DNA of 64,000 bases from Streptomyces sp. RFCAC02 (GTDB lineage: Bacteria; Actinomycetota; Actinomycetes; Streptomycetales; Streptomycetaceae), in contig NZ_SAUH01000001.1 in NCBI RefSeq assembly GCF_004193175.1, positions 4,931,501-4,995,500 of the forward strand. Direction: 5' to 3'. The notes beneath the pieces were generated by a model. It was not told where the DNA came from, made no database searches, and saw nothing but the letters and a program-made list of their open reading frames with translations. This document shows, piece after piece, positions 5,679 through 61,951 of the stretch; position 1 is the stretch's first letter; each line of letters starts with the position of its first letter. The position numbers were made by a program, and so were the translations under genes.

Positions 5679-7072
5679 CCGAGCACGCCACTCCGACACC
5701 GAGCATGGACCTGCACCCCCGCCCCACCGCGGGCGAGCCGACGCCCTGGGCGTTCCCGGCGCCGGACCGCGGCACCCTCCCCAACGGGATGGCCGTCCTG
5801 CGCGTCCACCGCCCCGGCCAGCAGATCATCGCCGTCGAGATCAACCTGCCCGCGCCGCTGGCGGCCGAGCCCGCCGGGCAGGAGGGCGTGGCCACGATCA
5901 TGGCCCGCGCGTTCGCCGAGGGCACCGACCGGCACACGGCCGAGGAGTTCGCCGCCGAGCTGGAGCGCTGCGGCGCCACCTTCGACGCCCACGCCGACCA
6001 CCCCGGCGTGCGGGTCTCCCTGGAGGTGCCCGCCTCGCGCCTGACGAACGCGCTGCGCCTCGTCGCGGACGCCCTGCGCGCCCCCGCGTTCCCCGAGCAC
6101 GAGATCGAACGCCTCGTCCGCAACCGCCTCGACGAGATCCCCCACGAACTGGCCAACCCGGCCCGCCGTGCCGCGATGGCGCTGTACGACACGCTGTTCC
6201 CGGCCGAGTCGCGCCTCTCCCGGCCGCGCCAGGGCACGGCGGAGAGCGTCGAACGCGTCGACGCCAAGGCGGTGCGGGCGTTCTACGAGGCCCATGTCCG
6301 CCCGGCCGGCGCGACGGCCGTCGTGGTCGGCGACCTGACCGGCATCGACCTCGACGCCGTGCTGGCCGACACCCTCGGCGCGTGGTCCGGGCAGCCGGCC
6401 GCCGAGCCCGTGTGGGAGCCGGTCACCGCGGACGACACCGGGCGCGTCGTCATCGTGGACCGGCCCGGCGCGGTGCAGACGCAGCTGCTGATCGCGCGGA
6501 CGGGACCCGACCGCCACGACCCGGTGTGGGCCGCGCAGCGGCTCGGCATCTACTGCCTCGGCGGCACGATCACCTCGCGCCTCGACCGGGTGCTGCGCGA
6601 GGAGAAGGGCTACACGTACGGCATCCGCGCGTTCGCCCAGGTGCTGCACTCCCCCGCGGACGGCACCGGGCTCGCGCTGCTCGGCATCCGCGGCTCGGTC
6701 GCGACGGACGTGACCGGCCCGGCGCTCGCCGACCTGTGGCAGGTGCTGCGGACGCTGGCCGCCGAGGGGCTGACCGACGACGAGCGGGACGCCGCCGTCC
6801 AGTTCCTGGTGGGCGTGGCGCCGCTCAGCTTCGAGACGTCGGCCGCCGTCGCCGGGACCCTCGCCGACCTCGTGGAGGAGGGGCTGCCGGACGACTTCCA
6901 GGCCCGCCTGTACGCGCGGATGGCGGAGACCGGCACCGTGGAGACCACCGCGGCCGTGGTCCGCGCCTTCCCGCTCGACCGGCTCGTGACGGTGCTGGTC
7001 GGTGACGCGGCGCAGATCGCCGAGCCGGTACGCGCCCTCGGCATCGGCGAGGTCACCGTCATCGGCGGCTGA
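5675..7072 (+). CDS. M16 family peptidase-like protein lacking the zinc motif (partner subunit)
   Basis: 465 residues, starting at GTG 5675 inside the stop codon of the preceding M16 gene. It has the M16 fold signature, including the C-terminal R/Y substrate-binding block SRLDRVLREEKGYTYG, but where HxxEH should be the sequence reads GVATIMARAF. It therefore cannot bind catalytic zinc in the usual way. By analogy with bacterial M16B heterodimers and mitochondrial processing peptidase, it probably forms the non-catalytic half of a dimer with the gene upstream. A hairpin terminator at 7088-7119 ends the operon. Confidence 0.88.
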   Translation: MTEHATPTPSMDLHPRPTAGEPTPWAFPAPDRGTLPNGMAVLRVHRPGQQIIAVEINLPAPLAAEPAGQEGVATIMARAFAEGTDRHTAEEFAAELERCGATFDAHADHPGVRVSLEVPASRLTNALRLVADALRAPAFPEHEIERLVRNRLDEIPHELANPARRAAMALYDTLFPAESRLSRPRQGTAESVERVDAKAVRAFYEAHVRPAGATAVVVGDLTGIDLDAVLADTLGAWSGQPAAEPVWEPVTADDTGRVVIVDRPGAVQTQLLIARTGPDRHDPVWAAQRLGIYCLGGTITSRLDRVLREEKGYTYGIRAFAQVLHSPADGTGLALLGIRGSVATDVTGPALADLWQVLRTLAAEGLTDDERDAAVQFLVGVAPLSFETSAAVAGTLADLVEEGLPDDFQARLYARMAETGTVETTAAVVRAFPLDRLVTVLVGDAAQIAEPVRALGIGEVTVIGG

Positions 7073-47823: not shown

Positions 47824-48984
47824 GTGACTGAGACCTCCATAGCCCATGACACCGCCACGGGTTCCCCGGTCCGGCTCCAGGCTGTCGCCGCCGAGGGGCA
47901 GCCCGAGGTCACCCCGGCGCTCGAAGAGCTGTACCACGGCTTCGAACAGGAACTGCTGGTCCCGCTGTGGACCGAGATCGGCGACCTGATGCCGGCCCAC
48001 CCCCGCTCGCGCGCCGTGCCGCACCTGTGGCGCTGGGACCGGCTGCGGCGGCTCGCCGCCCGGGCCGGCGACCTGGTCCCCGTCGGCCGCGGCGGCGAGC
48101 GCCGCGCCATCGCGCTGGCCAACCCGTCCCTCGGCGGCAGGCCGTTCGCCACGCCGACGCTGTGGGCGGCCATCCAGTACCTCATGCCCGGCGAGGACGC
48201 CCCCGAGCACCGGCACACCCAGCACGCCTTCCGCTTCGTCGTCGAGGGCTCGGGCGTGTGGACGGTCGTCGGCGGCGACCCGGTGCCCATGAACCGCGGC
48301 GACTTCCTCCCGCAGGCCGGCTGGAACTGGCACGCCCACCACAACGCCACGTCCGAGCCGATGGCGTGGATCGACGGCCTGGACATCCCCCTCCAGTACG
48401 CCACCGAGGCACAGTTCTTCGAGTTCGGCCGCGACGGGATCGACGACACCGAGCGCATCACCCCCGAGCGGTCTCGCTCCGAACGCCTGTGGGGCCACCC
48501 CGGCCTGCGCCCCCTCGCGGCCGCCCCGGCCACACCGGGCAGCCCGCTGCTGTCGTACAAGTGGGAGCACACCAACGCCGCGCTCCGCGACCAGTGCCTC
48601 CTGGAGCGCGAGGGCTTCGGCGGCACCGTCGAGCCGGGCCACGCCGCGGTGCGGTACACCAACCCGCACGACGGCTGTGACGTCCTGCCGACGATCCGCG
48701 CCGAGTTCCACCGCGTCGTCCGCGGCGCCGAGACCGCACCGGTCCGGGAGACCGGATCGTCGGTGTACCAGGTCTTCGACGGCTCCGGCGTGGTGACCGT
48801 CGGCGACAGGGCGTGGACGGTGACCCGCGGCGACCTGTTCGTCGTCCCGTCCTGGGAGCCGTTCTCCGCCAGGTCCGAGGCCGGCGCGACCGACTCCGAC
48901 GAGGGCGCCCTCGACCTCTTCCGCTTCTCCGACGCGCCCGTCTTCGAGGCGCTCCGGCTCGACCGCACCCAGAAGGACGCCTGA
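47824..48984 (+). CDS. Gentisate 1,2-dioxygenase
   Basis: 386 residues of a bicupin. The N-terminal cupin has the iron-binding motif EDAPEHRHTQHAFRFVVEG (His-x-His) and a following DFLPQAGWNWHAHHN; the C-terminal cupin (about 290-370) is degenerate, with VYQVFDGSGVVTVG. It opens the ring of gentisate between C1 and C2 to maleylpyruvate, using Fe(II) and O2. First gene of the operon; start GTG 47824. The next gene follows after 2 bases. Confidence 0.92.
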   Translation: MTETSIAHDTATGSPVRLQAVAAEGQPEVTPALEELYHGFEQELLVPLWTEIGDLMPAHPRSRAVPHLWRWDRLRRLAARAGDLVPVGRGGERRAIALANPSLGGRPFATPTLWAAIQYLMPGEDAPEHRHTQHAFRFVVEGSGVWTVVGGDPVPMNRGDFLPQAGWNWHAHHNATSEPMAWIDGLDIPLQYATEAQFFEFGRDGIDDTERITPERSRSERLWGHPGLRPLAAAPATPGSPLLSYKWEHTNAALRDQCLLEREGFGGTVEPGHAAVRYTNPHDGCDVLPTIRAEFHRVVRGAETAPVRETGSSVYQVFDGSGVVTVGDRAWTVTRGDLFVVPSWEPFSARSEAGATDSDEGALDLFRFSDAPVFEALRLDRTQKDA

Positions 48985-48986
48985 CC

Positions 48987-49814
48987 ATGAAGCTCGCCAC
49001 CCTCCGCACCGCCGGCGGCACCAGGGCGGTCCGCCTCGACGGCGACGTCCTGGTCGACCTCGGGTACGCCGACCTGGGGGAGCTGTTCGCCGATGACGAC
49101 TGGCGCGCCACGGCCGCCGCGGCCACCGGCGCCACCCACCCCGCCGACGGCGCCGACCTCGCGCCGGTCGTGCCCAACCCCTCCAAGATCATCTGCGTCG
49201 GGCACAACTACACCGACCACATCAAGGAGATGGGCCGGGAACTGCCCGACCACCCGACCCTCTTCCCCAAGTTCGCCGACACCCTGCTGGGCGCGCGCGA
49301 CGACATCGTCAAGCCCGCCGAGACGGACGCGCTCGACTGGGAGGTCGAACTGGCCCTCGTGATCGGCAGCGCGGTGCGCCGCGCCGACGAGCGGCAGGCC
49401 GCCGACGCCATCGCCGGCTTCACCGTCATGAACGACATCTCCGCGCGCGACTGGCAGTTCCGCACGATCGAGTGGACGCAGGGCAAGATCTGGGAGGCGT
49501 CCACCCCCGTCGGCCCCTACGTCGTCACCCCCGACGAGGTCGGCGGCGTACGCCCCTCGCTCGGTGTCACGACGCTCGTCGACGGGCAGGTGATGCAGCA
49601 GGACGACACCGGGACGCTGCTGTTCGACCCGGTGTTCCTGGTGCGGTACATCTCCACGGTGATCACCCTGCGCCCCGGCGACATCATCGCCACCGGCACC
49701 CCGGCCGGCGTGGGCAACGCCCGCGACCCGAAGGTCTTCCTCCGCCCGGGCAGCACGGTGGTCACCGAGATCACGGGTCTCGGCGCCTGCGTGAACAGGG
49801 TGGTGGAAGCATGA
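48987..49814 (+). CDS. Fumarylpyruvate hydrolase (FAH family)
   Basis: 275 residues. The FAH fold has KIICVGHNYTDHIKEMG, WEVELALVIG (metal Glu), NDISARDWQ (metal Asp) and IATGTPAGVG. It hydrolyses fumarylpyruvate to fumarate and pyruvate, the last step of the mycothiol-dependent gentisate route. Its stop overlaps the isomerase start (ATGA). Confidence 0.88.
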   Translation: MKLATLRTAGGTRAVRLDGDVLVDLGYADLGELFADDDWRATAAAATGATHPADGADLAPVVPNPSKIICVGHNYTDHIKEMGRELPDHPTLFPKFADTLLGARDDIVKPAETDALDWEVELALVIGSAVRRADERQAADAIAGFTVMNDISARDWQFRTIEWTQGKIWEASTPVGPYVVTPDEVGGVRPSLGVTTLVDGQVMQQDDTGTLLFDPVFLVRYISTVITLRPGDIIATGTPAGVGNARDPKVFLRPGSTVVTEITGLGACVNRVVEA

Positions 49815-50443
49815 CGGACACGGCACGCACCCCCGCCCTCGCGCGCGCCTGGGTCCGCGCGGGCACGGAACGGGTCCTCGCCGCCGTCGCCGGCCTCGAC
49901 GAGGCAGGACTCTCGGCCGGCACCGTGCTCCCCGGCTGGACCCGGGCGCACCTCGCCGCCCACATCGCCGCGAACGCCGACGCCCTGGGCAACCTCGTGC
50001 GCTGGGCCGCCACCGGCGTGCGGACACCGATGTACGCCTCCCCCGGGGAACGCGCCGCCGGCATCGACAGGGGGCCGGCGCTGTCGGCCGCCGAGCTGCG
50101 TGCCTGGCTGACCGACTCGGCGCACCGGCTCGCCGCGGGACTCGACGGGCTCACCGACGAGCAGTGGCGCCACGAGGTCGTCACCGCCCAGGGCCGCACC
50201 GTCCCCGCCACCGAACTGCCGTGGATGCGCGCCCGCGAGGTGTGTGTCCACGCCGTCGACCTCGGCGCCGGCACGGCCTTCGCCGACCTGCCGGACGGTT
50301 TCCTGACCGCGCTGGTCGACGAGGTCCGCGAGAAGCGCGGCCTGACCGGACTGCCCGACGGGCCGCTGCCGGACGTCGCGGCCTGGCTGACCGGCCGCCC
50401 CCACGCGCTCGCCGGCGCCCCCGAACTCGGCCCGTGGCTGTGA
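49811..50443 (+). CDS. Mycothiol-dependent maleylpyruvate isomerase
   Basis: 210 residues. DinB-like metal-binding helical bundle with GWTRAHLAAHIAANADALGNLVRW (His47/His51) and REVCVHAVDL (Glu-x3-His), then a C-terminal domain. The Corynebacterium homologue uses mycothiol as cofactor to isomerise maleylpyruvate to fumarylpyruvate. Position between the hydrolase and the hydroxylase confirms the role. Confidence 0.88.
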   Translation: MTDTARTPALARAWVRAGTERVLAAVAGLDEAGLSAGTVLPGWTRAHLAAHIAANADALGNLVRWAATGVRTPMYASPGERAAGIDRGPALSAAELRAWLTDSAHRLAAGLDGLTDEQWRHEVVTAQGRTVPATELPWMRAREVCVHAVDLGAGTAFADLPDGFLTALVDEVREKRGLTGLPDGPLPDVAAWLTGRPHALAGAPELGPWL

Positions 50444-50454
50444 GGAGCCGGACC

Positions 50455-51708
50455 ATGACCCACCCCGATGTGATCGTCGTCGGCGGCGGCATCGGCGGCC
50501 TCGGCGCCGCGTACGCACTGACCCGCCGCGGCCTGCGCGTCCGCCTGCTGGAACGCGCGGCGGAGTTCGGCGAGGTCGGCGCCGGCATCCAGCTCGCGCC
50601 CAACTGCACCCGCATCCTCGACGACTACGGCCTGCTCGCGGAGGCCAGGAGCCTCGGCGTCGTCCCCGACTCCATGGTCATGCGCGACGCCGTCGACGGC
50701 ACCGAGCTGACCCGCCTCGACCTGCGCGACCTGGAGAAGCGCTACGGCCACCCCTACCTCGTCATCCACCGCAGCGACCTGCACGGCCTGCTCCTGCGGG
50801 CGTGCCGGCGCGCCGGCGTCGACCTGATCACGGACGCGCGGGTGATCTCGTACGGGAACACCGCCGACGGCGCCCGCGTCACCCTCGCCGACGGGGAGAC
50901 CCACGAGGCCGGCGTCGTGATCGCGGCCGACGGACTGCACTCCGTCGCCCGCGCGCTGCTCGTGGACGACGAGCCCGTCTCCTCGGCGTACGTCGCCTAC
51001 CGCGGCACCGTCCCCGCCGAACTGCCGCGGGTGGCGGCCGTCGACCTCGGCGAGGTCGCCGTGTACGTCGGCCCCCGCTGCCACTTCGTGCACTACGGCC
51101 TGCGCGGCGGCGAACTGCTCAACCAGGTCGCCGTCTTCGAGTCGCCGAAGGCCCTGGCGGGGCGGGACGACTGGGGCACGCCCGACGAACTCGACGCCGC
51201 CTTCGCCGCGACCTGCGACTTCGTCAGGGACGGCCTGCCGTTCATGTGGCGGGACAAGTGGTGGCGCATGTTCGACCGCGACCCGGTCATGACGTGGGTC
51301 CACGGTCGGATCGCGCTGCTCGGCGACTCGGCGCACCCGCCGCTGCAGTACATCGCGCAGGGCGCCGTCATGGCGATCGAGGACGGCTGGGTGCTGGGCG
51401 AGCACGTCGCCCGCCACCGCGCCGCCGACGGCACGGTCGACTGGGACGCCGCCCTCGCCGCCTACGAGGCGGTCCGCCCCGAGCACTGCCGCCGCGTGCT
51501 CACCACCTCCCGCGCGTGGGGCGAGCTGTGGCACCTCGACGGCGTCCCGCGCGAGCAGCGCAACGCGCTGCTGCGCGCCCGCGACACGTACGACTACTCC
51601 TTCGTCGACTGGCTGTACGGCCCGACCGCGCTCACGCCGGACCAGGAGCCGCCCATGTTCACGCCGGTCCCGCTGGACGCCGCGGTCGCCGAGGGGAGCG
51701 CGGCATGA
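50455..51708 (+). CDS. 3-Hydroxybenzoate 6-hydroxylase (FAD monooxygenase)
   Basis: 417 residues. The FAD-binding motif IVVGGGIGGLGAAYAL, the GAGIQLAPNCTRIL loop, and the GDSAHPPLQYIAQGA second FAD motif place it with 3-hydroxybenzoate 6-hydroxylases and salicylate hydroxylases. Its position in a gentisate operon makes 3-hydroxybenzoate to gentisate (NADH, O2) the best call; salicylate 5-hydroxylation is less likely because those enzymes are multicomponent. TGA-ATG overlap with the thiolase. Confidence 0.87.
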   Translation: MTHPDVIVVGGGIGGLGAAYALTRRGLRVRLLERAAEFGEVGAGIQLAPNCTRILDDYGLLAEARSLGVVPDSMVMRDAVDGTELTRLDLRDLEKRYGHPYLVIHRSDLHGLLLRACRRAGVDLITDARVISYGNTADGARVTLADGETHEAGVVIAADGLHSVARALLVDDEPVSSAYVAYRGTVPAELPRVAAVDLGEVAVYVGPRCHFVHYGLRGGELLNQVAVFESPKALAGRDDWGTPDELDAAFAATCDFVRDGLPFMWRDKWWRMFDRDPVMTWVHGRIALLGDSAHPPLQYIAQGAVMAIEDGWVLGEHVARHRAADGTVDWDAALAAYEAVRPEHCRRVLTTSRAWGELWHLDGVPREQRNALLRARDTYDYSFVDWLYGPTALTPDQEPPMFTPVPLDAAVAEGSAA

Positions 51709-52898
51709 ACGACGCCTACCTGTACGCCGCCGTCCGCACACCGTTCGGCCGTCTGGGCGGCGCCCTCGCGGCAACACGCCCCGACGACCTCGCCGCGACC
51801 GCGCTGGCCGGCCTGCTCGACCGGGCACCGGGCCTCGACCGCGCCGCGATCGACGACGTCGTGTGGGGCAACGCCAACGGCGCCGGCGAGGACAACCGCA
51901 ACGTGGGCCGGATGGCCGTCCTGCTGGCCGGGCTCCCCGTGAGCGTGCCCGCCACGACCGTCAACCGGCTGTGCGGCTCCGGCCTGGACGCGGCGATCAC
52001 CGCGTCGCGCGCCCTGGAGTCCGGTGACGCGGACATCGCCGTCGCCGGCGGCGTCGAGTCCATGACCCGGGCGCCCTGGGTGCTGCCCAAACCGGACCGC
52101 GCCTTCCCCGCCGGCCACACCACCGCCGTCTCCACCACCCTGGGCTGGCGGCTGGTCAACCCGGCCATGCCCGCCGAGTGGACGGTGTCGCTGGGCGAGT
52201 CCAACGAACTGCTCCGCGAGCGGTACCCGGTCACCCGCGAGCGGCAGGACGCGTTCGCGCTGCGCTCCCACCGGCTCGCGGCGCGCGCTTGGGACGAGGG
52301 CTTCTACGACGACCTGGTCCTGCCGGTCGACGGACTCCCGCGCGACGAGGGCATCAGGCCCGACACCGACCCCGGGAAGCTGGCCGCCCTGAAGCCGTCG
52401 TTCCGCCCGGACGGCACGATCACCGCCGGCAACGCGTCGCCGCTCAGCGACGGGGCGTCCGCGCTGCTGCTCGGCACCGGGACCGCCGCGGACCGGATCG
52501 GCCTCGACCCCGTCGCCCGCGTCGCCGGGCGCGGCGTGCACGCCGTCGAGCCGCCCCTGTTCGGGTACGCGCCGGTCGAGGCCGCCGGGAAGGCGCTGCG
52601 ACGCGCCGGCATCGGCTGGGGCGACGTGGGTGCCGTCGAGCTGAACGAGGCGTTCGCCGTGCAGTCGCTCGCGTGCCTGGACGCGTGGGGCGTCGATCCG
52701 GAGATCGTCAACGTCAGGGGCGGCGCCATCGCGATCGGGCACCCGCTGGGCGCCTCCGGCGGCCGGCTGCTCGGCACCCTGGCGAAGGTGCTGCGCGAGC
52801 GGCGGGAGCGGTGGGGCGTCGCCGCCATCTGCATCGGCGTGGGCCAGGCCCTCGCCGTCGTGCTGGAGAACGTCACCGGGGAGGTGAGCGGCCGATGA
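51705..52898 (+). CDS. Acetyl-CoA acyltransferase (thiolase), 3-oxoadipyl-CoA type
   Basis: 397 residues. Catalytic Cys90 in NRLCGSGLDA, the His loop GGAIAIGHPLGASG, and the second Cys in ICIGVGQA. It is closest in layout to degradative thiolases such as PcaF. It cleaves a 3-oxoacyl-CoA to acetyl-CoA and a shorter acyl-CoA. The gentisate pathway does not need it, so it probably serves another product. It overlaps both neighbours (ATGA). Confidence 0.9.
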   Translation: MNDAYLYAAVRTPFGRLGGALAATRPDDLAATALAGLLDRAPGLDRAAIDDVVWGNANGAGEDNRNVGRMAVLLAGLPVSVPATTVNRLCGSGLDAAITASRALESGDADIAVAGGVESMTRAPWVLPKPDRAFPAGHTTAVSTTLGWRLVNPAMPAEWTVSLGESNELLRERYPVTRERQDAFALRSHRLAARAWDEGFYDDLVLPVDGLPRDEGIRPDTDPGKLAALKPSFRPDGTITAGNASPLSDGASALLLGTGTAADRIGLDPVARVAGRGVHAVEPPLFGYAPVEAAGKALRRAGIGWGDVGAVELNEAFAVQSLACLDAWGVDPEIVNVRGGAIAIGHPLGASGGRLLGTLAKVLRERRERWGVAAICIGVGQALAVVLENVTGEVSGR

Positions 52899-53590
52899 GC
52901 GCGACGACCATCGCCGCCACGGCCGACGAGGCCGTGGCGGGCGTGGCGGACGGATCGACGGTCCTGGTGGGCGGGTTCGGTCTCGCCGGCATGCCGTTCG
53001 ACCTGATCGACGCGCTGATCCGGCAGGGCGCCGGGGACCTGACCGTGGTGTCCAACAACGCCGGCAACGGTGACGTGGGCCTGGCCGCGCTGCTGGCGGC
53101 GGGCCGCGTCCGCAAGGTGATCTGCTCCTTCCCGCGGCAGAGCGACTCGTACGTCTTCGACGGCCTGTACCGGGCGGGCCGCGTGGATCTCGAAGTGGTC
53201 CCGCAGGGCACCCTGGCGGAACGGATACGGGCCGCCGGGGCCGGCATCGGCGCGTTCTACAGCCCCGTCGGCGTCGGCACGCCGCTCGCCGAGGGCAAGG
53301 AGACCCGGCGGATCGACGGGCGCACCCACGTCCTGGAACACCCGATCAAGGGTGACGTGGCCCTCATCTCGGCGCACCGCGCCGACACCGCGGGCAACCT
53401 CGTCTACCGCAGGACGGCCAGGAACTTCGGGCCGGTGATGGCGACGGCGGCCGGCACCGTGATCGTCCAGGTCACCGACATCGTGCCCGCGGGGGAGATC
53501 GACCCGGAGACCGTCGTCACCCCCGGCATCTACGTCGACCGCCTGGTGCGGGCCGAGGCCCGCCGCCTGACCGTGCGAGGAGCCCGCTGA
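52895..53590 (+). CDS. 3-Oxoacid CoA-transferase subunit A
   Basis: 231 residues. Signature VLVGGFGLAGMPFDLIDALI near residue 23, followed by LTVVSNNAGNGDVGLAALL and FPRQSDSYVFDGLY. It forms a heterotetramer with subunit B and activates a 3-oxoacid (3-oxoadipate or acetoacetate) with succinyl-CoA. The stop overlaps the next start by one base. Confidence 0.9.
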   Translation: MSATTIAATADEAVAGVADGSTVLVGGFGLAGMPFDLIDALIRQGAGDLTVVSNNAGNGDVGLAALLAAGRVRKVICSFPRQSDSYVFDGLYRAGRVDLEVVPQGTLAERIRAAGAGIGAFYSPVGVGTPLAEGKETRRIDGRTHVLEHPIKGDVALISAHRADTAGNLVYRRTARNFGPVMATAAGTVIVQVTDIVPAGEIDPETVVTPGIYVDRLVRAEARRLTVRGAR

Positions 53591-54264
53591 TGACGACGAC
53601 CCACGCCGCGGCCCCGCGCGAGCACGCCGACCGCGGGCCGCTCACCACCGACGAACTCGCGGCCCGGATCGCGCGCGACATCCCGCCCGGCGCCTACGTC
53701 AACCTCGGCATCGGACAGCCGACCCGGATCGCCGAGCACCTGCCGGCGGACGCGGGAATCGTCCTGCACACCGAGAACGGCATGCTCGGCATGGGGCCGG
53801 CGGCCACCGGCGACGAGGTGGACCCCGACCTCACCAACGCCGGGAAGGTGCCCGTCACGGAGCTGCCGGGCGCGGCGTACTTCCACCACGCCGACTCGTT
53901 CGCCATGATGCGGGGCGGCCACCTCGACGTGTGCGTCCTCGGCGCGTTCCAGGTCTCGCACCACGGCGACCTCGCCAACTGGCACACCGGCGACCCGGAC
54001 GCCGTCCCGGCCGTGGGAGGGGCGATGGACCTGGCGGTCGGCGCGCGGCGGGTGCTGGTGATGATGCGGCTGTTCACCCGCGACGGCGCCCCCAAGCTGG
54101 TGTCCGAATGCACCTGTCCGCTGACCGGTGCCGGCTGCGTGAGCCTCGTCTACACCGACCACGGTGTCTTCGAGCCGGGTCCCGACGGGGTGCGGGTGAA
54201 GGAGACGTACGGCATCACGGTGGCCGGGCTGCGCGAGCGGCTCCCCGTCGACCTCATCGGCTGA
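53590..54264 (+). CDS. 3-Oxoacid CoA-transferase subunit B
   Basis: 224 residues. The catalytic Glu lies in VLHTENGMLGMGP, the subunit-B SENG-type motif; YVNLGIGQPTRIAEHLP precedes it. It forms the enzyme with subunit A; thiolase and transferase together resemble the lower beta-ketoadipate pathway. Last gene of the IclR-controlled transcript. Confidence 0.9.
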   Translation: MTTTHAAAPREHADRGPLTTDELAARIARDIPPGAYVNLGIGQPTRIAEHLPADAGIVLHTENGMLGMGPAATGDEVDPDLTNAGKVPVTELPGAAYFHHADSFAMMRGGHLDVCVLGAFQVSHHGDLANWHTGDPDAVPAVGGAMDLAVGARRVLVMMRLFTRDGAPKLVSECTCPLTGAGCVSLVYTDHGVFEPGPDGVRVKETYGITVAGLRERLPVDLIG

Positions 54265-54301: not shown

Positions 54302-54910
54302 ATGGCGAACCTCCGACAGGCGCAGAAGCGGATGACGCGCCGCCTGCTGCTCGAGTCCGGGCTCGAGCTGTTCACGGCGAAGGGGTACGCCGCCACCACC
54401 GTCGACGACATCGCGACGGCCGCGGGCACCACCCGGGTGACGTTCTACGCCTACTTCCCGTCGCGCAGCGAGCTGATGCGGGCGCTCATCGACGAGCAGC
54501 TCAACGAGGCGCTGCAGCGCGTCCGTTCGCCCGAGCACGGCTCCACGGCCCAGGGCCTCGTGGACACCGTCGCCGCCGGGACGGCCGAGGCCATCGCGGA
54601 CTGGCTGCGGCGCACCGCCGAGGCGTGGCCGACGGTCCGGCCGATCATCCGCGTGGGCCGGGACGCCGCCGCGGTCGATCCGGAGCTGGCCGACCTCGTG
54701 GAGCGGTGGATGGCCGAGGCCATCGGCGACATCGAGGACGGGCTGACGGCCGCCGGACGTTTCGCGCCCCACCAGCGGCGGTTCCGCGGGGTGCTGGCGA
54801 TGGCCGAGCTGGACTACGTCGCCCAGCACTGGGACGGCGCCGACTGGAAGCTCACGCGCGGGCAGATGCTCGACGAGCTGGCCGCGAGCTGGACGCGGCT
54901 GCTGACCTGA
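54302..54910 (+). CDS. TetR family regulator, candidate controller of the hydrolase operon
   Basis: 202 residues. N-terminal TetR helix-turn-helix with TTVDDIATAAGTTRVTFYAYFPSRSELMRALI. The C-terminal domain (about 75-195) is a helical ligand pocket, with WKLTRGQMLDELAASWTRLL at the end. A terminator (54931-54960) follows and then the hydrolase operon. Its operator may be the near-palindrome at 55084-55107. Confidence 0.88.
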   Translation: MANLRQAQKRMTRRLLLESGLELFTAKGYAATTVDDIATAAGTTRVTFYAYFPSRSELMRALIDEQLNEALQRVRSPEHGSTAQGLVDTVAAGTAEAIADWLRRTAEAWPTVRPIIRVGRDAAAVDPELADLVERWMAEAIGDIEDGLTAAGRFAPHQRRFRGVLAMAELDYVAQHWDGADWKLTRGQMLDELAASWTRLLT

Positions 54911-54930
54911 CCTCGACCTGACCTGTTCCG

Positions 54931-54960
54931 ACCGGACCGGCCGCCGTGCGCCGGTCCGGT
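54931..54960. terminator. 10-bp hairpin after the TetR gene
   Basis: Arms 54931-54940 and 54951-54960 pair perfectly around a 10-base loop. Confidence 0.65.
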
Positions 54961-55083
54961 TCCCGTGGTGCCGTGACACGGCGCCCGTCTTCCGGCACCG
55001 CCATGCGCCGATGCCATGCCCGTTGCTCTGCATTCCCCCCATTTCGCAACCCCTCGTACGTTATTTTTTCTTGGTGTCCGTTT

Positions 55084-55115
55084 CATTGACGCTATGTAAA
55101 GTGAATGGCTAATGT
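55084..55115 (+). promoter_or_regulatory. Promoter and possible operator of the hydrolase operon
   Basis: TTGACG (55086-55091) and TAATGT (55110-55115) with an 18-base spacer lie in the most A/T-rich stretch of the window (about 55055-55115). CATTGAC (55084-55090) and GTGAATG (55101-55107) form an imperfect inverted repeat (one mismatch) across the spacer, where a repressor would block the promoter. Start codon 53 bases downstream. Confidence 0.55.
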
Positions 55116-55167
55116 GACAGCCACCGGGTGCGCCGACGCACCCCCACCGGACACGTGAGGGCCTCTC

Positions 55168-56142
55168 ATGAGCGCGAACAGCACCACCGTGAACACCGTC
55201 CTGGGCGCGGTGCCGGCCGACGAACTGGGCGTCGTCTCGGTCCATGAGGCGCTGCTGTCGGTGCTCCCCGGTGCCGAGCACGCGTACGACATCACCCTCG
55301 ACCGGGCCGAGATCTTCGAGACGCTGGCCGCCCGGCTGCGGGACTTCCGCGCACACGGCGGCGGCACGATCGTCGACAGCACCGGCATGTTCCACGGGCG
55401 GGACGTCCCGCTGTACGAGGCCCTGTCCCGCGCGACCGGCGTCCACATCGTCGCCTCGACCGGCCAGGGACCCGAGGAACTGCTCGGCGGGTACTTCCTC
55501 ACCCCGCAGACCAACCCGCCGACACCGTGGCCGGCCGACAGGTTCGCCGACCTCTTCGCCCGGGAGATCACCGAGGGCATGGTGGTCCCGCGCGTCGAGC
55601 GCCGCGGCCCCGCCGGCCTCGTGGCCACGGCCGCGACCCGTACCGGCCGGACGGCGACCGACGAGAGCCTGCTGCGCGGCGCGGCCCGGGCCGCCCTCGC
55701 CACCGGCGTCGCGCTGTCCGTCCGCCACGGCGCCGACGCCGCCGGCGACCTCGGCGTCGTCCTGGACGAAGGGCTGCCCGCCGACCGCGTCGCCGTCGGC
55801 GGCCTCGACCGCCAGGACGCCGTGGCCGCCGGCGCGCCCGAGCGGATCGCCGGCCTCGGCGCCCGCGTCGTGCTCGACCACGTCGGCACCGAGGACGCCG
55901 GGCACCTCACCGACGCCGAACGCGCCGACCTGGTCACCGGTCTCGTGCGGGCCGGCTTCGGCGACCGGATCCTGCTGTCGAGCAGCGCGACCGGGGTGGC
56001 GAAGGGCCACCCGGCCACCGGCACGCCGTACAGCCACGTCCTGACCGCCTTCGTGCCGCTGCTGACCGCGCGCGGCCTCGACGGCGACGATGTGCGGCGG
56101 ATCCTCGTCGCCAACCCGCGCGACCTGCTCGCGACGCGCTGA
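55168..56142 (+). CDS. Phosphotriesterase-family protein without metal ligands (pseudoenzyme)
   Basis: 324 residues with the same plan as the next gene: VNTVLGAVPADELGVVSVHE at the start, GGGTIVDSTGMFHGRDV, TGVHIVASTGQ, and ILVANPRDLL at the end. Aligned with its neighbour, the metal site has decayed: the second His of HxH is Ala28, the bridging Lys is Ala153, the first barrel His is Arg186 (His187 adjacent), the second is Gly212, and the catalytic Asp is Ser273. It cannot be a normal binuclear hydrolase. The frame is intact and protein-like, so it is probably kept for a structural or regulatory role, perhaps as partner of the next gene. Confidence 0.85.
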   Translation: MSANSTTVNTVLGAVPADELGVVSVHEALLSVLPGAEHAYDITLDRAEIFETLAARLRDFRAHGGGTIVDSTGMFHGRDVPLYEALSRATGVHIVASTGQGPEELLGGYFLTPQTNPPTPWPADRFADLFAREITEGMVVPRVERRGPAGLVATAATRTGRTATDESLLRGAARAALATGVALSVRHGADAAGDLGVVLDEGLPADRVAVGGLDRQDAVAAGAPERIAGLGARVVLDHVGTEDAGHLTDAERADLVTGLVRAGFGDRILLSSSATGVAKGHPATGTPYSHVLTAFVPLLTARGLDGDDVRRILVANPRDLLATR

Positions 56143-56191
56143 GCGCACCGGTCCCGACGACCGTCAAGTCCTCTTCCCGAAGGTGAGTGTT

Positions 56192-57148
56192 GTGTCGAGA
56201 GTGAACACCGTGCTGGGGCCGGTCCCCGCCGAGGAACTGGGTTTCGTGGCCGTCCACGAGCACATCGGGTACGGCATGCCCGGCTCCGAGCTGGACACCA
56301 CGTGGTGGAAGACCCCCGAGCAGCGCTACGAGGAGACTGTCCCCAAGCTGCGCAGGTTCCACGAACTCGGCGGCGGCACCCTCGTCGACGTGACCGGCAT
56401 CTGCAACGGCCGTGACGTCGACCACTACCGGTCCCTGTCCGCGAAGACGGGCGTCCACATCGTCGCCTGCACCGGCTTCGTCGGCGGCGACACCGCGCTG
56501 CCGCACTTCGCGCGCGCCGAGGTCGACTACCTCACGCGGCAGTTCGTCCACGAGATCACCGTCGGTATCGGCGGCACCGGCAGCCTCGCCGGCGTCATCA
56601 AGGTCGGCGTGAGCCGCGGCGGCCGCATGACGGAGCTCGACAAGCGCATCTACCGCGCAGCGGCCCGCGCCTCGCTCACCACGGGCGTACCGATCCTCAC
56701 CCACCTCGCGATCGACGCCGAGAACGCCGTCGCGATCTTCGAGGAGGAGGGCCTGCCGCTGGACCGCGTGCTGTTCGGGCACGTGGACGACGGCGTGAAC
56801 GCCGAGCGCACGCGCGACGTCTGGATCGCCGAGCAGGGCGGCCGCATCGGCTTCGACACGTTCGGCTACGAGACCGAGCTGCCCGACCCGCCGTTCTGGG
56901 CACGGCCGCGCAAGGAACGCCTCGACCACTTCCTGCGGTTCATCGACGGGGGCCGCCGCCTGGGGCAGGTCCTCGCCTCCGCCGACGCCAACTGCAGCCC
57001 GCTCGGCTGGCCGGGCGTCGAGGGCCACACCGTCAACTACCTCTTCGACGAGCTCATCCCCGACCTGCGCGCGGCCGGTCTGGACGAGGCCGCCATCCGG
57101 ACCGTCTTCGTCGACAACCCCGCCGGCTTCCTGACCATCCAGAAGTGA
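56192..57148 (+). CDS. Phosphotriesterase-family metal-dependent hydrolase (PLL-like)
   Basis: 318 residues from GTG 56192, with GAAGGTGAG placed before it (GTG 56183 and 56201 are alternatives). A complete binuclear site: His22 and His24 (VHEHIG), bridging Lys137 (VIKVG), His171 (LTHLA), His197 (FGHVDD) and Asp265 (ASADAN). The family includes phosphotriesterases and lactonases; the natural reaction is more probably opening of a lactone or cleavage of an ester. It follows the pseudoenzyme by 49 bases. Confidence 0.88.
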   Translation: MSRVNTVLGPVPAEELGFVAVHEHIGYGMPGSELDTTWWKTPEQRYEETVPKLRRFHELGGGTLVDVTGICNGRDVDHYRSLSAKTGVHIVACTGFVGGDTALPHFARAEVDYLTRQFVHEITVGIGGTGSLAGVIKVGVSRGGRMTELDKRIYRAAARASLTTGVPILTHLAIDAENAVAIFEEEGLPLDRVLFGHVDDGVNAERTRDVWIAEQGGRIGFDTFGYETELPDPPFWARPRKERLDHFLRFIDGGRRLGQVLASADANCSPLGWPGVEGHTVNYLFDELIPDLRAAGLDEAAIRTVFVDNPAGFLTIQK

Positions 57149-57161
57149 GAGAGACCGAACC

Positions 57162-58277
57162 ATGCACTCCTCGGACCTGAAAAACCTGAAGGTCGCGATC
57201 GTCGGCGCCGGATACGGCGGCGCCGCGGCGGCCAAGGCCCTGGGCCTGCTGGGTGCGCGCGTCGACGTCTACGAGCAGGCGAACCGGATCCGCGAGGTCG
57301 GCGCCGGCATCGGCCTGCGTCCCGCCACCATCAACCGGTTCCGCCAGTGGGGCATCTTCGACGCGATCGACCGCGTCAGCTCGCCCAGCGAGTACTTCGA
57401 GATCCTCACCGCGACCGGTGAGCCGATCACGAAGGAGACCTGGCCCGCGGACGGGGATCAGACCCGCACCCACCTGATCCACCGCGGCGACTTCATCGAC
57501 GCCCTCCTGGGCGTGCTGCCCGAGGGCGTCCTCCACCTCGGCCACAGGCTCCGGGCCGTCGAGGACAGGGGCGACGGCGCCACCCTCGTCTTCGCGGACG
57601 GCAGGACCGTCGACGCGGACCTCGTCGTGGGCGCCGACGGCATCAAGTCGGTCGTGCGGCAGCGGCTGTTCAGCGACAAGGGGCCGGTGTTCTCCGGCGA
57701 GCACGCCTACCGCGCCGTCATCTCCCTGGACGACGCCCACGGCATGGTCGCCGACGACAACCTCCGCATGTACATCGGCAGGGGGACGAAGGTCTACCTG
57801 CTGCCGCTCCGGCACCGCAACCAGGTGTCGTTCGACATCACCGCCCTGTGCCCGGACGGCACCTGGACGCCCAGCGTCACCAAGGACGACCTGCTGCGGA
57901 CGGTCCGCGGCTTCGACGAACGCCTCGTGCGCATCACGCGCGGCCTCGACATGGACACCGTCAACATCCGCGCCGTGTACGACATCGACCCCATCGACAC
58001 CTGGCACTCGGACTCCGTCGTCCTTGTCGGCGACGCCGCCCACTCGATGCTCCACCACCAGGGCCAGGGCGCGAACTCGGCCATCGAGGACGCGGGCGCG
58101 CTCGCCGACGCCCTGCGCGACGCCGCGTCCGTGACCGAAGCCCTCGCCCGGTACCAGGCCACCCGCAAACCCGTGACCGACACGCTGCAGGCCGTCTCCC
58201 GCCAGGGCTGGACCGAGGACGAGATCGACGAGGTCTTCCCCGGCCAGCGGCCCGCGGCCGCCGCCGTGAAGGAGTGA
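57162..58277 (+). CDS. FAD-dependent monooxygenase (salicylate hydroxylase-like)
   Basis: 371 residues. KVAIVGAGYGGAAAAKALGL (FAD), GAGIGLRPATINRFRQWGI, LVVGADGIKSVVRQRL (DG motif) and VVLVGDAAHSMLHHQGQGAN. It would hydroxylate an aromatic or ring substrate with NAD(P)H and O2. Located inside the hydrolase operon; it may produce the hydroxylated compound that the hydrolases then open or deacylate. Confidence 0.88.
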   Translation: MHSSDLKNLKVAIVGAGYGGAAAAKALGLLGARVDVYEQANRIREVGAGIGLRPATINRFRQWGIFDAIDRVSSPSEYFEILTATGEPITKETWPADGDQTRTHLIHRGDFIDALLGVLPEGVLHLGHRLRAVEDRGDGATLVFADGRTVDADLVVGADGIKSVVRQRLFSDKGPVFSGEHAYRAVISLDDAHGMVADDNLRMYIGRGTKVYLLPLRHRNQVSFDITALCPDGTWTPSVTKDDLLRTVRGFDERLVRITRGLDMDTVNIRAVYDIDPIDTWHSDSVVLVGDAAHSMLHHQGQGANSAIEDAGALADALRDAASVTEALARYQATRKPVTDTLQAVSRQGWTEDEIDEVFPGQRPAAAAVKE

Positions 58278-58284
58278 CGTCGTC

Positions 58285-59211
58285 ATGCCGCTGCACCCCG
58301 AGATCGCCGCGTTCATCGCCGCCCTGCCCGCCCCGCCCGGCGGCCCGCTCGACCCGGCCGCCCTGCGCGCCGCCGAGGAGGCGCACGTCACCCCCGAGGG
58401 GGAACGCCGCCCGCTGCACGCCGTGGCGGACACGACCGCGCGGACCGCATCCGGCGACGTGCCGGTACGGATCTACACGCCGACCGCCGCCGACCGCCAC
58501 GGCCTGCTCGTGTACTTCCACGGCGGCGCCTTCTTCCTCGGCAGCCTGGAGACCCACGACCACGTGGCACGCTCACTGGCGGCGGAGACCGGGCTCAAGG
58601 TCGTCTCCGTGGGCTACCGCCGCGCGCCCGAGGCCCCCTTCCCCGCCGGGCTCGACGACTGCCACGCCGTCGTGCGCTGGGCCGCCGCCGAGGGCGGCCG
58701 GCTCCTCGGCTGGGACGGCGCCACCCTGGCCGTCGCCGGGGACAGCTCCGGCGGGAACTTCGCCGCCGCCGTCGCGGCCGGGGCGTACGACGAGGGCTTC
58801 GGCGGGATCACCCACCAGATCCTCTACTACCCGTCCCTCGACCTGGACTTCGACACCGACCGCTACCCGTCGCTGCGCGAGAACGCCGTCGGCTACGGGC
58901 TGGAGACGGCCGGCCTCGCGCCGTTCAACGCCTTCTACCTCGACAGCGGCGCCGACCCCGCCGACCCGCTCGTCTCCCCGGTCAAGCGGGCCGACCTCGC
59001 CGGGCTGCCGCCCGCGCTCGTCGTCACCGCCGAGTTCGACCCGCTGCGCGACGAGGGCGAGCTGTACGCCCGCCGGCTGCGGGAGGCCGGCGTGCCGGCG
59101 GTCGTGCGCCGCGTCGCCGGGGCGAACCACGGATTCGTCCAGAACTTCCCGCACATCCCCGAGTTCCGCGAGGTCTTCGCCGCCACCCGCGACTTCCTCG
59201 CCGGGCACTGA
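58285..59211 (+). CDS. Alpha/beta hydrolase, hormone-sensitive-lipase family esterase
   Basis: 308 residues. Oxyanion motif YFHGGAFFLGS, nucleophile Ser in AGDSSGGNFAAA, the Asp of VVTAEFDPLRDEGE and the His of GANHGFVQNF complete the HSL triad. An esterase for short acyl esters, acting in the cytoplasm. It is 7 bases after the monooxygenase. Confidence 0.9.
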   Translation: MPLHPEIAAFIAALPAPPGGPLDPAALRAAEEAHVTPEGERRPLHAVADTTARTASGDVPVRIYTPTAADRHGLLVYFHGGAFFLGSLETHDHVARSLAAETGLKVVSVGYRRAPEAPFPAGLDDCHAVVRWAAAEGGRLLGWDGATLAVAGDSSGGNFAAAVAAGAYDEGFGGITHQILYYPSLDLDFDTDRYPSLRENAVGYGLETAGLAPFNAFYLDSGADPADPLVSPVKRADLAGLPPALVVTAEFDPLRDEGELYARRLREAGVPAVVRRVAGANHGFVQNFPHIPEFREVFAATRDFLAGH

Positions 59212-59243: not shown

Positions 59244-60206
59244 ATGACGCCGGAAGGCACCGTCCACCCCGTGGTCTCGCCGTGGGGCCGCTTCGGTCTG
59301 TACAGCTTCTTCATCGACGCGCCCGAGCCGGCGATCGTCGACACCGGGATCGCGTCGTCGCCCGCCGAGGGCATCGTCCCGGCCCTCGCGGCGATCGGGC
59401 GCCGCGTCGAGGACGTGCGGTGGATCCTGCTCACGCACGGGCACATCGACCACATCGGCGGGGCGCACGCCCTGTGGGAACTCACCGGCCGGCGCGCGCG
59501 GGTCGTCATCCACGAGGCCGACGCGCCGATGCTCCGCTCACGGCAGGCCCACGTGGCGGAGTACCGCGCGGGACGCGGCCGGTACCTGCGCGATCCCGGG
59601 GGAGAGGCCCGGGTCGCGGCGGCGGCGGACGCCGTCATCTCCGGCGAGATGGAACCCACCCTGCTCGTCAGGGGCGGCGAGACCCTCTCCCTCGGCGGCG
59701 GCATCACCGTCTCCGTGCACGCCCTCCCGGGCCACACCCCCGGCTCGGTCGCCTACGTCATCGACGGCCGGCGCGCCGCGTTCACCGGCGACGCCGTACA
59801 GGTCCACGGAGCCGCCAACGGCTTCCCCGGCTACACCGACCCGGCGGCCTACCGCGCCGGCCTCGAACACCTCCGCGACGAGATCCGCCCGCTGAACCTC
59901 TACCTCGGGCACCCCTACCGCCGCGCGGACGGCACCCCGTACGGCGTCGAACTCGACGAGGCGCAGGCCCGGGAAGCCCTCACCCACAGCCTCGACGCCG
60001 AACGCCGCATCGCCGCCGCCGCCCGCGCCTGCCTGGAGGCCGGGCCGCGGGAGACGGACTCGCCGTACTCCCCCTTCGCGCCCGTCGCGGCCGCGCTCGG
60101 CTACACGGGCGACCCGACGCTCGAACCGTCACCGTTCTTCACCTCGCTGCACGGCTACCGCATGCAGCACAACAGGACCGCGCAGCACAGGAGTCACCGA
60201 TCATGA
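59244..60206 (+). CDS. MBL-fold metallo-hydrolase
   Basis: 320 residues. The zinc motif THGHIDH (64-70), HALPGHTPGSVAYVIDG, AFTGDAVQVH and LYLGHPYRR give the full metallo-beta-lactamase-fold ligand set. It could be a lactonase or thioesterase. It is preceded by AGGAGAGAGG, a strong ribosome binding site, and overlaps the next gene by ATGA. Confidence 0.9.
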   Translation: MTPEGTVHPVVSPWGRFGLYSFFIDAPEPAIVDTGIASSPAEGIVPALAAIGRRVEDVRWILLTHGHIDHIGGAHALWELTGRRARVVIHEADAPMLRSRQAHVAEYRAGRGRYLRDPGGEARVAAAADAVISGEMEPTLLVRGGETLSLGGGITVSVHALPGHTPGSVAYVIDGRRAAFTGDAVQVHGAANGFPGYTDPAAYRAGLEHLRDEIRPLNLYLGHPYRRADGTPYGVELDEAQAREALTHSLDAERRIAAAARACLEAGPRETDSPYSPFAPVAAALGYTGDPTLEPSPFFTSLHGYRMQHNRTAQHRSHRS

Positions 60207-61951
60207 CCGACCTCCGGACGATACGGGCGGGCGAGCGGACCATCGCCGTCCGCAAGGACCTGCGGGCGCCGATGCGCGACGGCGTCGAACTCGCCCTGGA
60301 CGCCTACCACGGCCTGGACGACACGCCGCGCCCCGCCCTGATCGCGATGAGCGCCTACGGCAAGGAACTGCAGGCCCTCGCCCTCACCACACCGCCGCAG
60401 CGCAGGCCGAGCCCGATGTGGGACGGCTGCATCGAGGCCGGCGACATCGCCCGCGTCGTGCGGGAGGGCTACGTCCACGTCATCGGCGACATGCGCGGCA
60501 CGGGCGACTCGGGCGGCGTCATGATCGGCAACTACAACGCGGGCGGCGTGCCCCAGGGCCGGGACCTGTACGACGTGGTCGAGTGGGTCGCCGCCCAGCC
60601 GTGGTGCGACGGCAACGTCGGCATGATCGGCATCTCGTACTTCGGCTCCATGCAGGTGCTCGCCGCGGCCGAGCGCCCGCCGCACCTGAAGGCCGTCTTC
60701 GTCAGCGGGGGGCACTTCGACTTCTACGAGACGACGTACCACGGCGGGATCATGTGGTTCATGCCGCGTGCCGCGCGCGAGGGACGCGGCGGCGACTCCG
60801 GCATCGCGCACACCGACGTCAGGTCCCGCATGCAGGCGGTGCACAGCCCCGAGGAGCTGCGGAGACGCGTCGACGAGCGGCTGGCCGACCCGGACGTGGC
60901 GGCGTGGCCGAACCTCGTCCATGTGCTGAAATACCCGAAGAACCGCGAGTTCTGGTTCGACATCGTGCTGAACCCCCTCGACGGCGACTGGTACGAGGAG
61001 CGCAACCCGGTCAACCTCGCCCGGAACATCGACATACCGGTCTATCTGCAGATCGACCAGGGCCGCGGCTGGACGGTCGACGGCCACATCGAGCTGTTCG
61101 ACGTGCTCAAGGGGCCGAAGAAGCTGGACATCGGCTCCTACCCGCCGATGCAGTCGCGCCCCTGGATCGAGGAGCACGACAAGATGTTCCGCTGGTACGA
61201 GTACTGGCTCAAGGGCGTCGACAACGGGATCATGGACGAGCCTGCCGTCAGCGTCTTCGTGGAGGGCTCGCGCGAGGTCGTCACGGCGGCGCAGTGGCCC
61301 CCGAAGGAGATCGCGTACCGGTCCCTGCACCTGCGGCCGCGCCACAGGCTGTCCTTCGAGCCGGAGCACATGGGCGCCGAGCACGCCGCGCCCGACGGCT
61401 TCTACCAGGCGCCGCTCACCGTCACCGACACGGTCCAGGTGCTCTCCTGGCGCACCGAGCCGTTCGACGCCCCCACCGAACTGATCGGCAGCGGCGCGGC
61501 GCACCTGTTCGCCGAGATCGACCAGGACGACACCAACTTCATCCTGCGCCTGTGGGACGAGGCACCGGGCGGCGGCCGGCAGCTCATCACCAGCGGCTAC
61601 CTCAAGGCGTCCCACCGCGAACTCGACACGGAGCGCACCACCGAGGGCGACCCGTACCACCCGCACACGCGGGCGGTGCCGGTGGAGCCGGGGGCGATCG
61701 AGGAGTACGTGCTGCGGCTCTATCCGTTCGCGGCGACCCTGCTGCCGGGACACCGCCTGGTGGCGGAACTGTCGAACGACGAGCCCCTGGCCGACGCGCA
61801 CAACGCGCTGCTGCCGCCGGACGCGTTCCACCTGCCGGTGGGCCGCCCCGTGACCCACAAGATCTACCGCGACGCGGCACACCCGTCCCGCCTGGTCCTT
61901 CCGTTCACGGAACCCTCGGCACGGAACGCGCCACGACCGCGCTCCGAGTGA
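60203..61951 (+). CDS. CocE/NonD-family hydrolase with atypical catalytic site
   Basis: 582 residues. The X-Pro dipeptidyl-peptidase S15/CocE layout is clear: MRDGVELALDAYHG, VHVIGDMRGTGDSGG, nucleophile Ser145 in GMIGISYFGS, and a C-terminal jelly-roll domain (about 350-560). Two usual triad partners seem absent: the GWYD-type Asp region reads LQIDQGRGWTVDG and the GP..H region reads IGSYPPMQSRPW. Either another Asp/His takes over (EEHDKMFRWYEY is nearby) or it is a divergent form. Last gene of the operon. Confidence 0.82.
   Translation: MTDLRTIRAGERTIAVRKDLRAPMRDGVELALDAYHGLDDTPRPALIAMSAYGKELQALALTTPPQRRPSPMWDGCIEAGDIARVVREGYVHVIGDMRGTGDSGGVMIGNYNAGGVPQGRDLYDVVEWVAAQPWCDGNVGMIGISYFGSMQVLAAAERPPHLKAVFVSGGHFDFYETTYHGGIMWFMPRAAREGRGGDSGIAHTDVRSRMQAVHSPEELRRRVDERLADPDVAAWPNLVHVLKYPKNREFWFDIVLNPLDGDWYEERNPVNLARNIDIPVYLQIDQGRGWTVDGHIELFDVLKGPKKLDIGSYPPMQSRPWIEEHDKMFRWYEYWLKGVDNGIMDEPAVSVFVEGSREVVTAAQWPPKEIAYRSLHLRPRHRLSFEPEHMGAEHAAPDGFYQAPLTVTDTVQVLSWRTEPFDAPTELIGSGAAHLFAEIDQDDTNFILRLWDEAPGGGRQLITSGYLKASHRELDTERTTEGDPYHPHTRAVPVEPGAIEEYVLRLYPFAATLLPGHRLVAELSNDEPLADAHNALLPPDAFHLPVGRPVTHKIYRDAAHPSRLVLPFTEPSARNAPRPRSE

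Follow-up and report, generated by a model that had tools for sequence, protein, structure and literature searches.

Retention of a metal-less phosphotriesterase homologue beside an intact copy in a soil actinobacterium suggests that the inactive protein works as a partner of the active one

The window analysed here is a stretch of 64,000 nucleotides from Streptomyces sp. RFCAC02 (contig NZ_SAUH01000001.1, positions 4,931,501 to 4,995,500 of the forward strand), within which two adjacent genes, named PTE1 and PTE2 (Table 1), encode proteins of the phosphotriesterase (PTE) family PF02126. Both passed the Pfam gathering score of 22.4 (PTE1 with 111.8 bits, PTE2 with 155 bits) and they share 37% identity over PTE1 residues 7–321. 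Each fell below the cut-offs of the named NCBIfam equivalogs (PRK09875, organophos_OPH, PhFuoseLconase), PTE1 scoring at best 68.8 (cut-off 486) and PTE2 119.1 (cut-off 500), and Pfam gave no second domain in PTE1. The predicted PTE1 monomer is a PTE-type beta/alpha barrel; the predicted PTE2 monomer had a mean predicted local distance difference test (pLDDT) score of 85.9. The true start of PTE2 is likely the GTG at 56192, which is preceded by AAGGTGAG, the same spacer end being found in loci L034, L037 and L043; the upstream ATG at 56090 taken by a mechanical list of open reading frames sits inside PTE1 and is an unlikely start. The same genome (6.1 Mb, two contigs) encodes a third PF02126 protein 41 kb away, with its ligand set intact (alignment row O_L002).

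Functional PTEs and lactonases carry a His-x-His (HxH) motif, a Lys or Glu, two further His and an Asp as metal ligands; PTE2 has this set and PTE1 does not. When the two proteins were aligned, with PTE2 numbered from GTG 56192, His24, Lys137, His171, His197 and Asp265 of PTE2 fell opposite Ala28, Ala153, Arg186, Gly212 and Ser273 of PTE1, and the same replacements were evident when PTE1 was aligned with PTE2 and SsoPox together. The residue equivalences quoted in a first-pass annotation of this DNA were thus correct; its statement that the first gene had lost the metal site holds for five of the six ligands, and not for all, because the first His of HxH (His22 of PTE2, His26 of PTE1) was kept in every one of 158 PTE1 sequences. 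None of the five lost ligands was present in any of these. The 158 sequences comprise 119 database matches, 38 loci and the window, are mostly close Streptomyces relatives with some species perhaps counted twice, and exclude the one locus (L071) that is cut by a contig end; the homologue search scored 8000 candidates and listed 120, as did one further search. The 53 distinct PTE1 sequences are a better base, and among them Arg stood at the third-His position in 52 and His26 in all 53. For PTE2, all six ligands were present in 38 of 39 sequences, the remaining row, presumably that of L035 with its frame of 256 aa, being gapped at the Asp. The pattern is more than chance, because both proteins pass PF02126 and are 37% identical and because the replacements are common to the PTE1 clade. 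At the five lost positions the most divergent PTE1 (L116, genome G202, match at 7024; 53–59% identity) reads Val, Ser, Arg, Asn and Gly in the tree alignment, and its residues 106–122 are unchanged. Three other PTE-family proteins (L108, L008, L033) show DY or DF in the HxH columns, which may be a misalignment or another variant.

Loss of the ligands was not accompanied by relaxed retention of the gene. The ratio of nonsynonymous to synonymous substitution (dN/dS), estimated by the Nei-Gojobori method from pairs with dS of 0.1–0.6, had a median of 0.320 for PTE1 (848 pairs), 0.197 for PTE2 (939 pairs), 0.316 for the flavin adenine dinucleotide (FAD) monooxygenase that follows them (FMO; 1002 pairs), 0.265 for an alpha/beta hydrolase (ABH; 343 pairs), 0.283 for a metallo-beta-lactamase-fold (MBL) hydrolase (123 pairs) and 0.217 for the CocE-type hydrolase (239 pairs). 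No pair reached a dN/dS of 1 or more for any of the six operon genes. With a G+C content at third codon positions of about 0.93 the absolute values are rough, and it is safer to compare the genes with one another; copies were also left out of the codon set if they had less than 85% coverage or less than 45% identity, contained N or stops, or had a length not divisible by three. PTE1 lengths were steady (about 317–334 aa among the 120 matches listed) and full-length frames spanned Corynebacterium to Streptomyces. Catalytic residues gone yet purifying selection is one mark of a pseudoenzyme within a heteromer, and PTE1 displays it. We regard PTE1 as a conserved pseudoenzyme, a designation that is solid as far as comparative sequence analysis reaches, and the first-pass annotation, which had proposed as much, is borne out by the near-fixed Arg, the steady lengths, the dN/dS of 0.32 and the presence of PTE1 beside PTE2 in 20 of 20 genomes; the randomly broken homologues that would have spoken otherwise were looked for across the homologues and not seen.

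The pair recurred in other genomes, as that annotation had suggested looking for. PTE2 followed PTE1 on the same strand and in the same order, at a gap of 2–63 bp, in 37 of 37 loci (L034–L070), the 38th (L071) being cut by a contig end; since all 38 loci were located via PTE1, a search starting from PTE2 weighs more. PTE2 was found in 16 of 392 genus genomes, the window's own included, and all 20 of the PTE2 genomes in which PTE1 was then sought (15 other genus genomes, four class genomes and G047) had it, about 11–119 bp from the PTE2 match. Among 394 class genomes PTE1 was found in five (E 1e-60), and PTE2 lay adjacent in the same five, own genome included. The pair is therefore uncommon (5/394 and 16/392), and a split pair was not seen in the genomes searched; constant genetic co-occurrence, a further mark of a pseudoenzyme heteromer, was what we found for PTE1 and PTE2. 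Some of these genomes duplicate species or loci of the 38-locus set (L113 is apparently the same species as L043; some sequences are identical), so that the counts are not additive. The 38 loci include members of Streptomyces, Thermomonospora, Nonomuraea, Microbispora, Actinomadura, Intrasporangium, Geodermatophilus, Rhodococcus, Nocardia, Kocuria, Arthrobacter, Citricoccus and Corynebacterium. When dN distances were compared between genes, PTE1–PTE2 gave the highest correlation of six pairs over 38 taxa (r 0.859, partial 0.692) and the highest of fifteen pairs over 18 taxa (r 0.908, partial 0.837).

The strongest constraint in PTE1 falls in a block after strand beta3 and not at the former ligand positions. 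Among 28 taxa picked for breadth, residues 106–122 had a mean pairwise identity of 0.972, compared with 0.683 outside residues 106–147, and formed the top 17-residue window, the best window outside residues 95–130 reaching 0.898. A column shuffle matched this in 0 of 5000 trials, a significance that is overstated because neighbouring columns are alike. Residues 106–113 were the only invariant run of at least five residues in PTE1; there are eleven such runs in PTE2, where the highest-scoring windows begin at 264–267 (loop 8, with the Asp ligand; the highest being 264–280), at 19 (with HxH) and at 87. PTE1 residues 106–110 align with residues 102–106 of SsoPox. In that lactonase, according to the available text of PMC3781021, Trp263 at the start of loop 8 touches Phe104 of the other monomer and positions substrate; the portion of PMC7084321 at hand describes an interface cavity joining the two active sites, and both sources, to that extent, report that the homodimer interface affects activity. 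The PTE1 block had low pLDDT in the monomer model (57 for residues 101–110 and 61 for 111–120), as did part of loop 8 of PTE2 (63 for residues 271–280). We infer from this coincidence of strong conservation with low monomer confidence that the PTE1 block and PTE2 loop 8 may fold against each other; this is the weakest link of the argument. The idea that PTE1 complements a shortened beta3 loop of PTE2, which had arisen from a gap in the alignment, was dropped, the hand-counted spacing from TG to the conserved Phe in PTE2 being equal to that in SsoPox.

By its gene content the operon is an aromatic-catabolic cluster rich in hydrolases (Table 1). The six-gene core (PTE1, PTE2, FMO, ABH, MBL and CocE) stood together in 35 of 38 loci, the other three being cut by contig ends, and all six genes were also present in five loci of the G genomes (L113–L117); the MBL gene was on the opposite strand in four loci (L055, L056, L065, L070). 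In locus L041, which resembles poor sequence, the PTE2 frame is abnormal and the ABH and MBL matches are split. The nearest solved relatives of FMO are tropone 2-monooxygenase and 6-hydroxynicotinate 3-monooxygenase, at only 148 bits for PDB 8rqh and 140 bits for 8uiq. Names given to the genes at 47824..54264 are family-level, several equivalog scores lying below curated cut-offs. Upstream of the core, 28 of 38 loci had a match to a cytochrome P450 of CYP199 type (assigned from the L034 copy), two of them partial (L042, L047); genes for ferredoxin, ferredoxin reductase and a LysR regulator often accompany the P450, and gentisate-pathway genes often adjoin. The interval 54910–55168 of the window is without the P450, ferredoxin, ferredoxin reductase and LysR genes seen near PTE1 in many relatives, and a search of the window's own genome at E 1e-40, run without a positive control, did not recover that P450. 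Loci L042 and L047 have partial matches to the P450, ferredoxin, reductase and LysR genes, as if these were being lost. The conserved element 5' of PTE1 may be a promoter or operator.

Table 1. Features of the PTE1/PTE2 locus, with positions in the window.
Feature	Position	Strand	Description
PTE1	55168..56142	+	324 aa; PF02126 phosphotriesterase-family protein without five of six metal ligands; first gene of pair
His26-Glu-Ala28 of PTE1	55243..55251	+	H26 158/158; position 28 Ala 155, Ser 3 of 158
PTE1 residues 106-122, after strand beta3	55483..55533	+	extra residues compared with PTE2; most conserved block of the PTE1 clade
PTE1 residues 133-147, before strand beta4	55564..55608	+	extra residues; mean pairwise identity 0.888
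Ala153 of PTE1	55624..55626	+	bridging-Lys position; A 112, T 45, V 1 of 158
Arg186 of PTE1	55723..55725	+	third-His position, nearly invariant; R 156, L 1, G 1 of 158
Gly212 of PTE1	55801..55803	+	fourth-His position; G 148, D 8, A 1, E 1 of 158
Ser273 of PTE1	55984..55986	+	Asp-ligand position; G 71, N 45, S 41, R 1 of 158
PTE2	56192..57148	+	318 aa; intact phosphotriesterase-like metallohydrolase; GTG start, 49 bp after PTE1
FAD monooxygenase (FMO)	57162..58277	+	PF01494 106.6 bits
Alpha/beta hydrolase (ABH)	58285..59211	+	hormone-sensitive-lipase type; PF07859 223.8 bits; LipP1 303.2, below cut-off 350
MBL-fold hydrolase	59244..60206	+	PF00753 73.1 bits
CocE/NonD-family serine hydrolase	60203..61951	+	last of six-gene core; TIGR00976 206.5 bits, above cut-off; PF02129, PF08530
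TetR-family regulator	54302..54910	+	adjoins PTE1; PF00440 56.9 bits
Aromatic-catabolic genes	47824..54264	+	gentisate-dioxygenase-like, FAA hydrolase, mycothiol maleylpyruvate isomerase-like, 3-hydroxybenzoate 6-hydroxylase-like, thiolase, CoA-transferase A and B
Promoter- or operator-like element 5' of PTE1	55081..55118	+	TTTCATTGAC, then TGTAAA; kept in 15 aligned upstream regions, window included

Phylogenetic placement of the two clades depended upon which sequences were included. In a tree with both clades (79 rows) PTE1 and PTE2 were sisters (100/95), and the program warned of long branches meeting; without PTE2, the PTE1 clade moved beside a Glu-bridged group of 10 rows, a weakly supported placement (83/45), and without PTE1, the PTE2 clade grouped with the Lys-type group (98/92). 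The L111 and L033 rows were dropped from the trees leaving one clade out. Monophyly of the PTE1 clade and of the PTE2 clade is firm; the other placements are insecure. A second type of adjacent PTE pair was found at L022 (1177–2301 and 2298–3368, genome G031), with frames overlapping by four bases, and also at L148–L151 and L157–L164. Strong matches to it occurred in 12 genomes (4 of 323 in the genus and 8 of 180 in the family of G291). The first gene lacked the third His in 12 of 12; in L157, L159 and L163 this was the sole change, twice to Asp, and metal loss is therefore uncertain there. The second gene was present and adjacent in 12 of 12, with the full ligand set and a Glu bridge in 11 of 12; that of L161 is split in two and can be read only in part. 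Of the 120 homologues listed for the first gene of this type, 39 (mostly more distant) kept all six ligands and 81 had at least one changed or gapped, in many combinations, and the median dN/dS was 0.347 over 55 pairs for the first gene and 0.259 over 45 pairs for the second; unlike in PTE1, the ligands vary while the protein is retained. PTE pairs are therefore recurrent, with the first gene ligand-altered in two clades. The L022 pair groups together and apart from PTE1 and PTE2, and this argues for separate origins, although the deep placements are not reliable. Another adjacent PTE pair, at L111 (2636–3649 and 3653–4669, genome G163), has two copies that both look intact by eye.

We favour the interpretation, with a probability of roughly 0.6, that PTE1 and PTE2 form a heteromeric hydrolase, with PTE2 as its catalytic and PTE1 as its non-catalytic subunit. 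A partner subunit was among the roles put forward in the first-pass annotation, and it is the one favoured by adjacency, co-occurrence, the best-correlated distances and a conservation hot-spot on the predicted interface side. PTE1 and PTE2 would assemble like the dimers of the PTE family, with PTE1 replacing one subunit; PTE1 residues 106–122 would pack on loop 8 of PTE2 (about residues 265–281) and shape or gate the PTE2 active site, in a contact modelled on that between residue 104 and Trp263 across SsoPox monomers. Arg186 and His26 of PTE1 might fill the vacant metal site or hold an anion, and the heteromer might cleave an ester or lactone intermediate of aromatic degradation, alongside FMO and the three other hydrolases of the operon. 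A more specific proposal, that of a composite active site in which the post-beta3 block of a metal-less subunit completes or gates the site of its partner, an arrangement that arose probably twice in Actinobacteria with the dead copy first both times, we advance only tentatively and consider doubtful.

Several observations weigh against the heteromer. Co-occurrence and adjacency are also expected from one catabolic operon moving as a block, and the neighbours FMO and ABH correlate strongly as well (partial 0.64 and 0.67), so that adjacency and joint transfer may account for part of the PTE1–PTE2 signal. The structure predictions cover monomers only, and loops outside the proposed contact were low too (pLDDT of 63 for PTE1 residues 71–80, 65 for 141–150, and 63 for PTE2 residues 31–40). 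PTE2, with its full metal site, might be a homodimer on its own, and the conserved block may be kept for the sake of a ligand bound by PTE1 itself. At L035 the PTE2 frame runs to only 256 aa, the remainder being matched apart, and in G672 (L132) PTE2 matches at residues 2–240 only, in both cases beside a full-length PTE1; these are near-identical rows, and may represent a sequencing fault or a broken PTE2 next to an intact PTE1. An origin of PTE1 by duplication of PTE2 was rejected as unproven, the sister placement being unstable when either clade is removed.

Two other interpretations would have PTE1 act without PTE2. It could be an independent binder or sensor of a small molecule, its emptied barrel holding an anionic aromatic substrate or product and signalling or buffering without a stable PTE2 complex; the Arg at the third-His position (52/53 distinct sequences) together with His26 (53/53) suggests a retained pocket, and PTE1 is the first gene after the conserved upstream element. 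The constraint peak, however, lies in the post-beta3 block and not at the former ligand positions, PTE1 distances follow PTE2 more than any other gene, Pfam gives no second domain in PTE1, and regulators are already there (TetR, plus LysR in relatives). The pocket-side residues D70 and D237 are just as invariant in PTE2 and are therefore uninformative on PTE1 specifically. We consider such a sensor, the other role put forward in the first-pass annotation, unlikely. An enzyme that works without metal or with one, as a hydrolase or lyase using His26, Arg186, His76, Glu103 and block 106–122, appears improbable to much the same degree, if not slightly more so: near-invariant polar residues absent from PTE2 (His76 and Glu103 each 157/158, Arg186 156/158) are in its favour, the nearly fixed Arg exceeding what drift would give, whereas His26 is the sole family metal ligand left, the most divergent member (L116) has Ala in place of His76, and the fourth-His (G, D, A, E) and Asp (G, N, S, R) positions vary, which is unusual for a working active site.

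The upstream position and constant pairing of PTE1 would also suit a folding or metallation chaperone, one that helps to insert the two metals of PTE2 or to carbamylate its Lys and is absent from the final enzyme, and the retained His26 could briefly hold a metal; but a chaperone would hardly need a whole barrel with an interface-side hot-spot, and to our knowledge the known PTE enzymes need no such factor, so that we give this role a very low probability. That PTE1 is merely a decaying duplicate carried with the operon has next to no chance of being right. PTE1 does evolve faster than PTE2 (dN/dS 0.320 and 0.197) and two of its ligand positions drift; yet its constraint equals that of the flavoenzyme with no pair at a dN/dS of 1 or more, its frames are full-length from Corynebacterium to Streptomyces with a nearly invariant block, it is present in 20 of 20 PTE2 genomes, and no random PTE1 frameshifts beside an intact PTE2 were seen in close strains among the loci examined. 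A decaying pseudogene was rejected on the dN/dS, the intact frames and the co-occurrence with PTE2.

PTE and the related lactonases serve as standard models in studies of enzyme evolution and detoxification. If the heteromer is real, a natural PTE1/PTE2 pair would let the contribution of the interface be separated from that of the metal centre, and PTE2 expressed alone may yield a dead or misassembled enzyme. Such a pair would also caution that many proteins of Streptomyces and relatives that are annotated "phosphotriesterase" are not metal hydrolases, the 119 matches examined all being without the five ligands. The first-pass annotation knew of no described pair of this kind, and we likewise found no report of a PTE pseudoenzyme or PTE heteromer among the open papers searched on phosphotriesterase (most subscription papers lie outside that scope).

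The characterised PTE and lactonase members are known as homodimers. PTE1 differs from the PF02126 proteins PTE and OpdA and the lactonases SsoPox, GkaP and DR0930 in that five of six ligands are gone, in its extra conserved residues after beta3 and before beta4, and in being found only beside PTE2. An inactive homologue kept as a partner is nonetheless a known kind, exemplified by the dihydroorotase-like pDHO chain of aspartate transcarbamoylase (ATCase), by PDX1.2 and by the RNase III-type editing proteins. Dihydroorotase belongs to the same amidohydrolase superfamily, and PDX1.2 co-assembles with active copies. As far as the available text of PMC7053772 extends, pDHO of the Pseudomonas ATCase dodecamer is an inactive dihydroorotase-like chain required for the activity of its partner; the likeness is that of an inactive chain beside an active partner, and the difference is that ATCase is an unrelated enzyme, whereas PTE1 would have as its partner an active protein of its own family. 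PDX1.2 is described, in the part of PMC6829848 at hand, as a non-catalytic paralogue in plant vitamin B6 synthesis; it comes from a different family and kingdom, without bacterial operon pairing. For the trypanosome RNase III-type editing endonucleases, the accessible portion of PMC9508840 reports that two related proteins are needed of which one is catalytically competent; fold and process are unrelated to those considered here, and the pairing there is experimental, whereas that of PTE1 with PTE2 is genomic.

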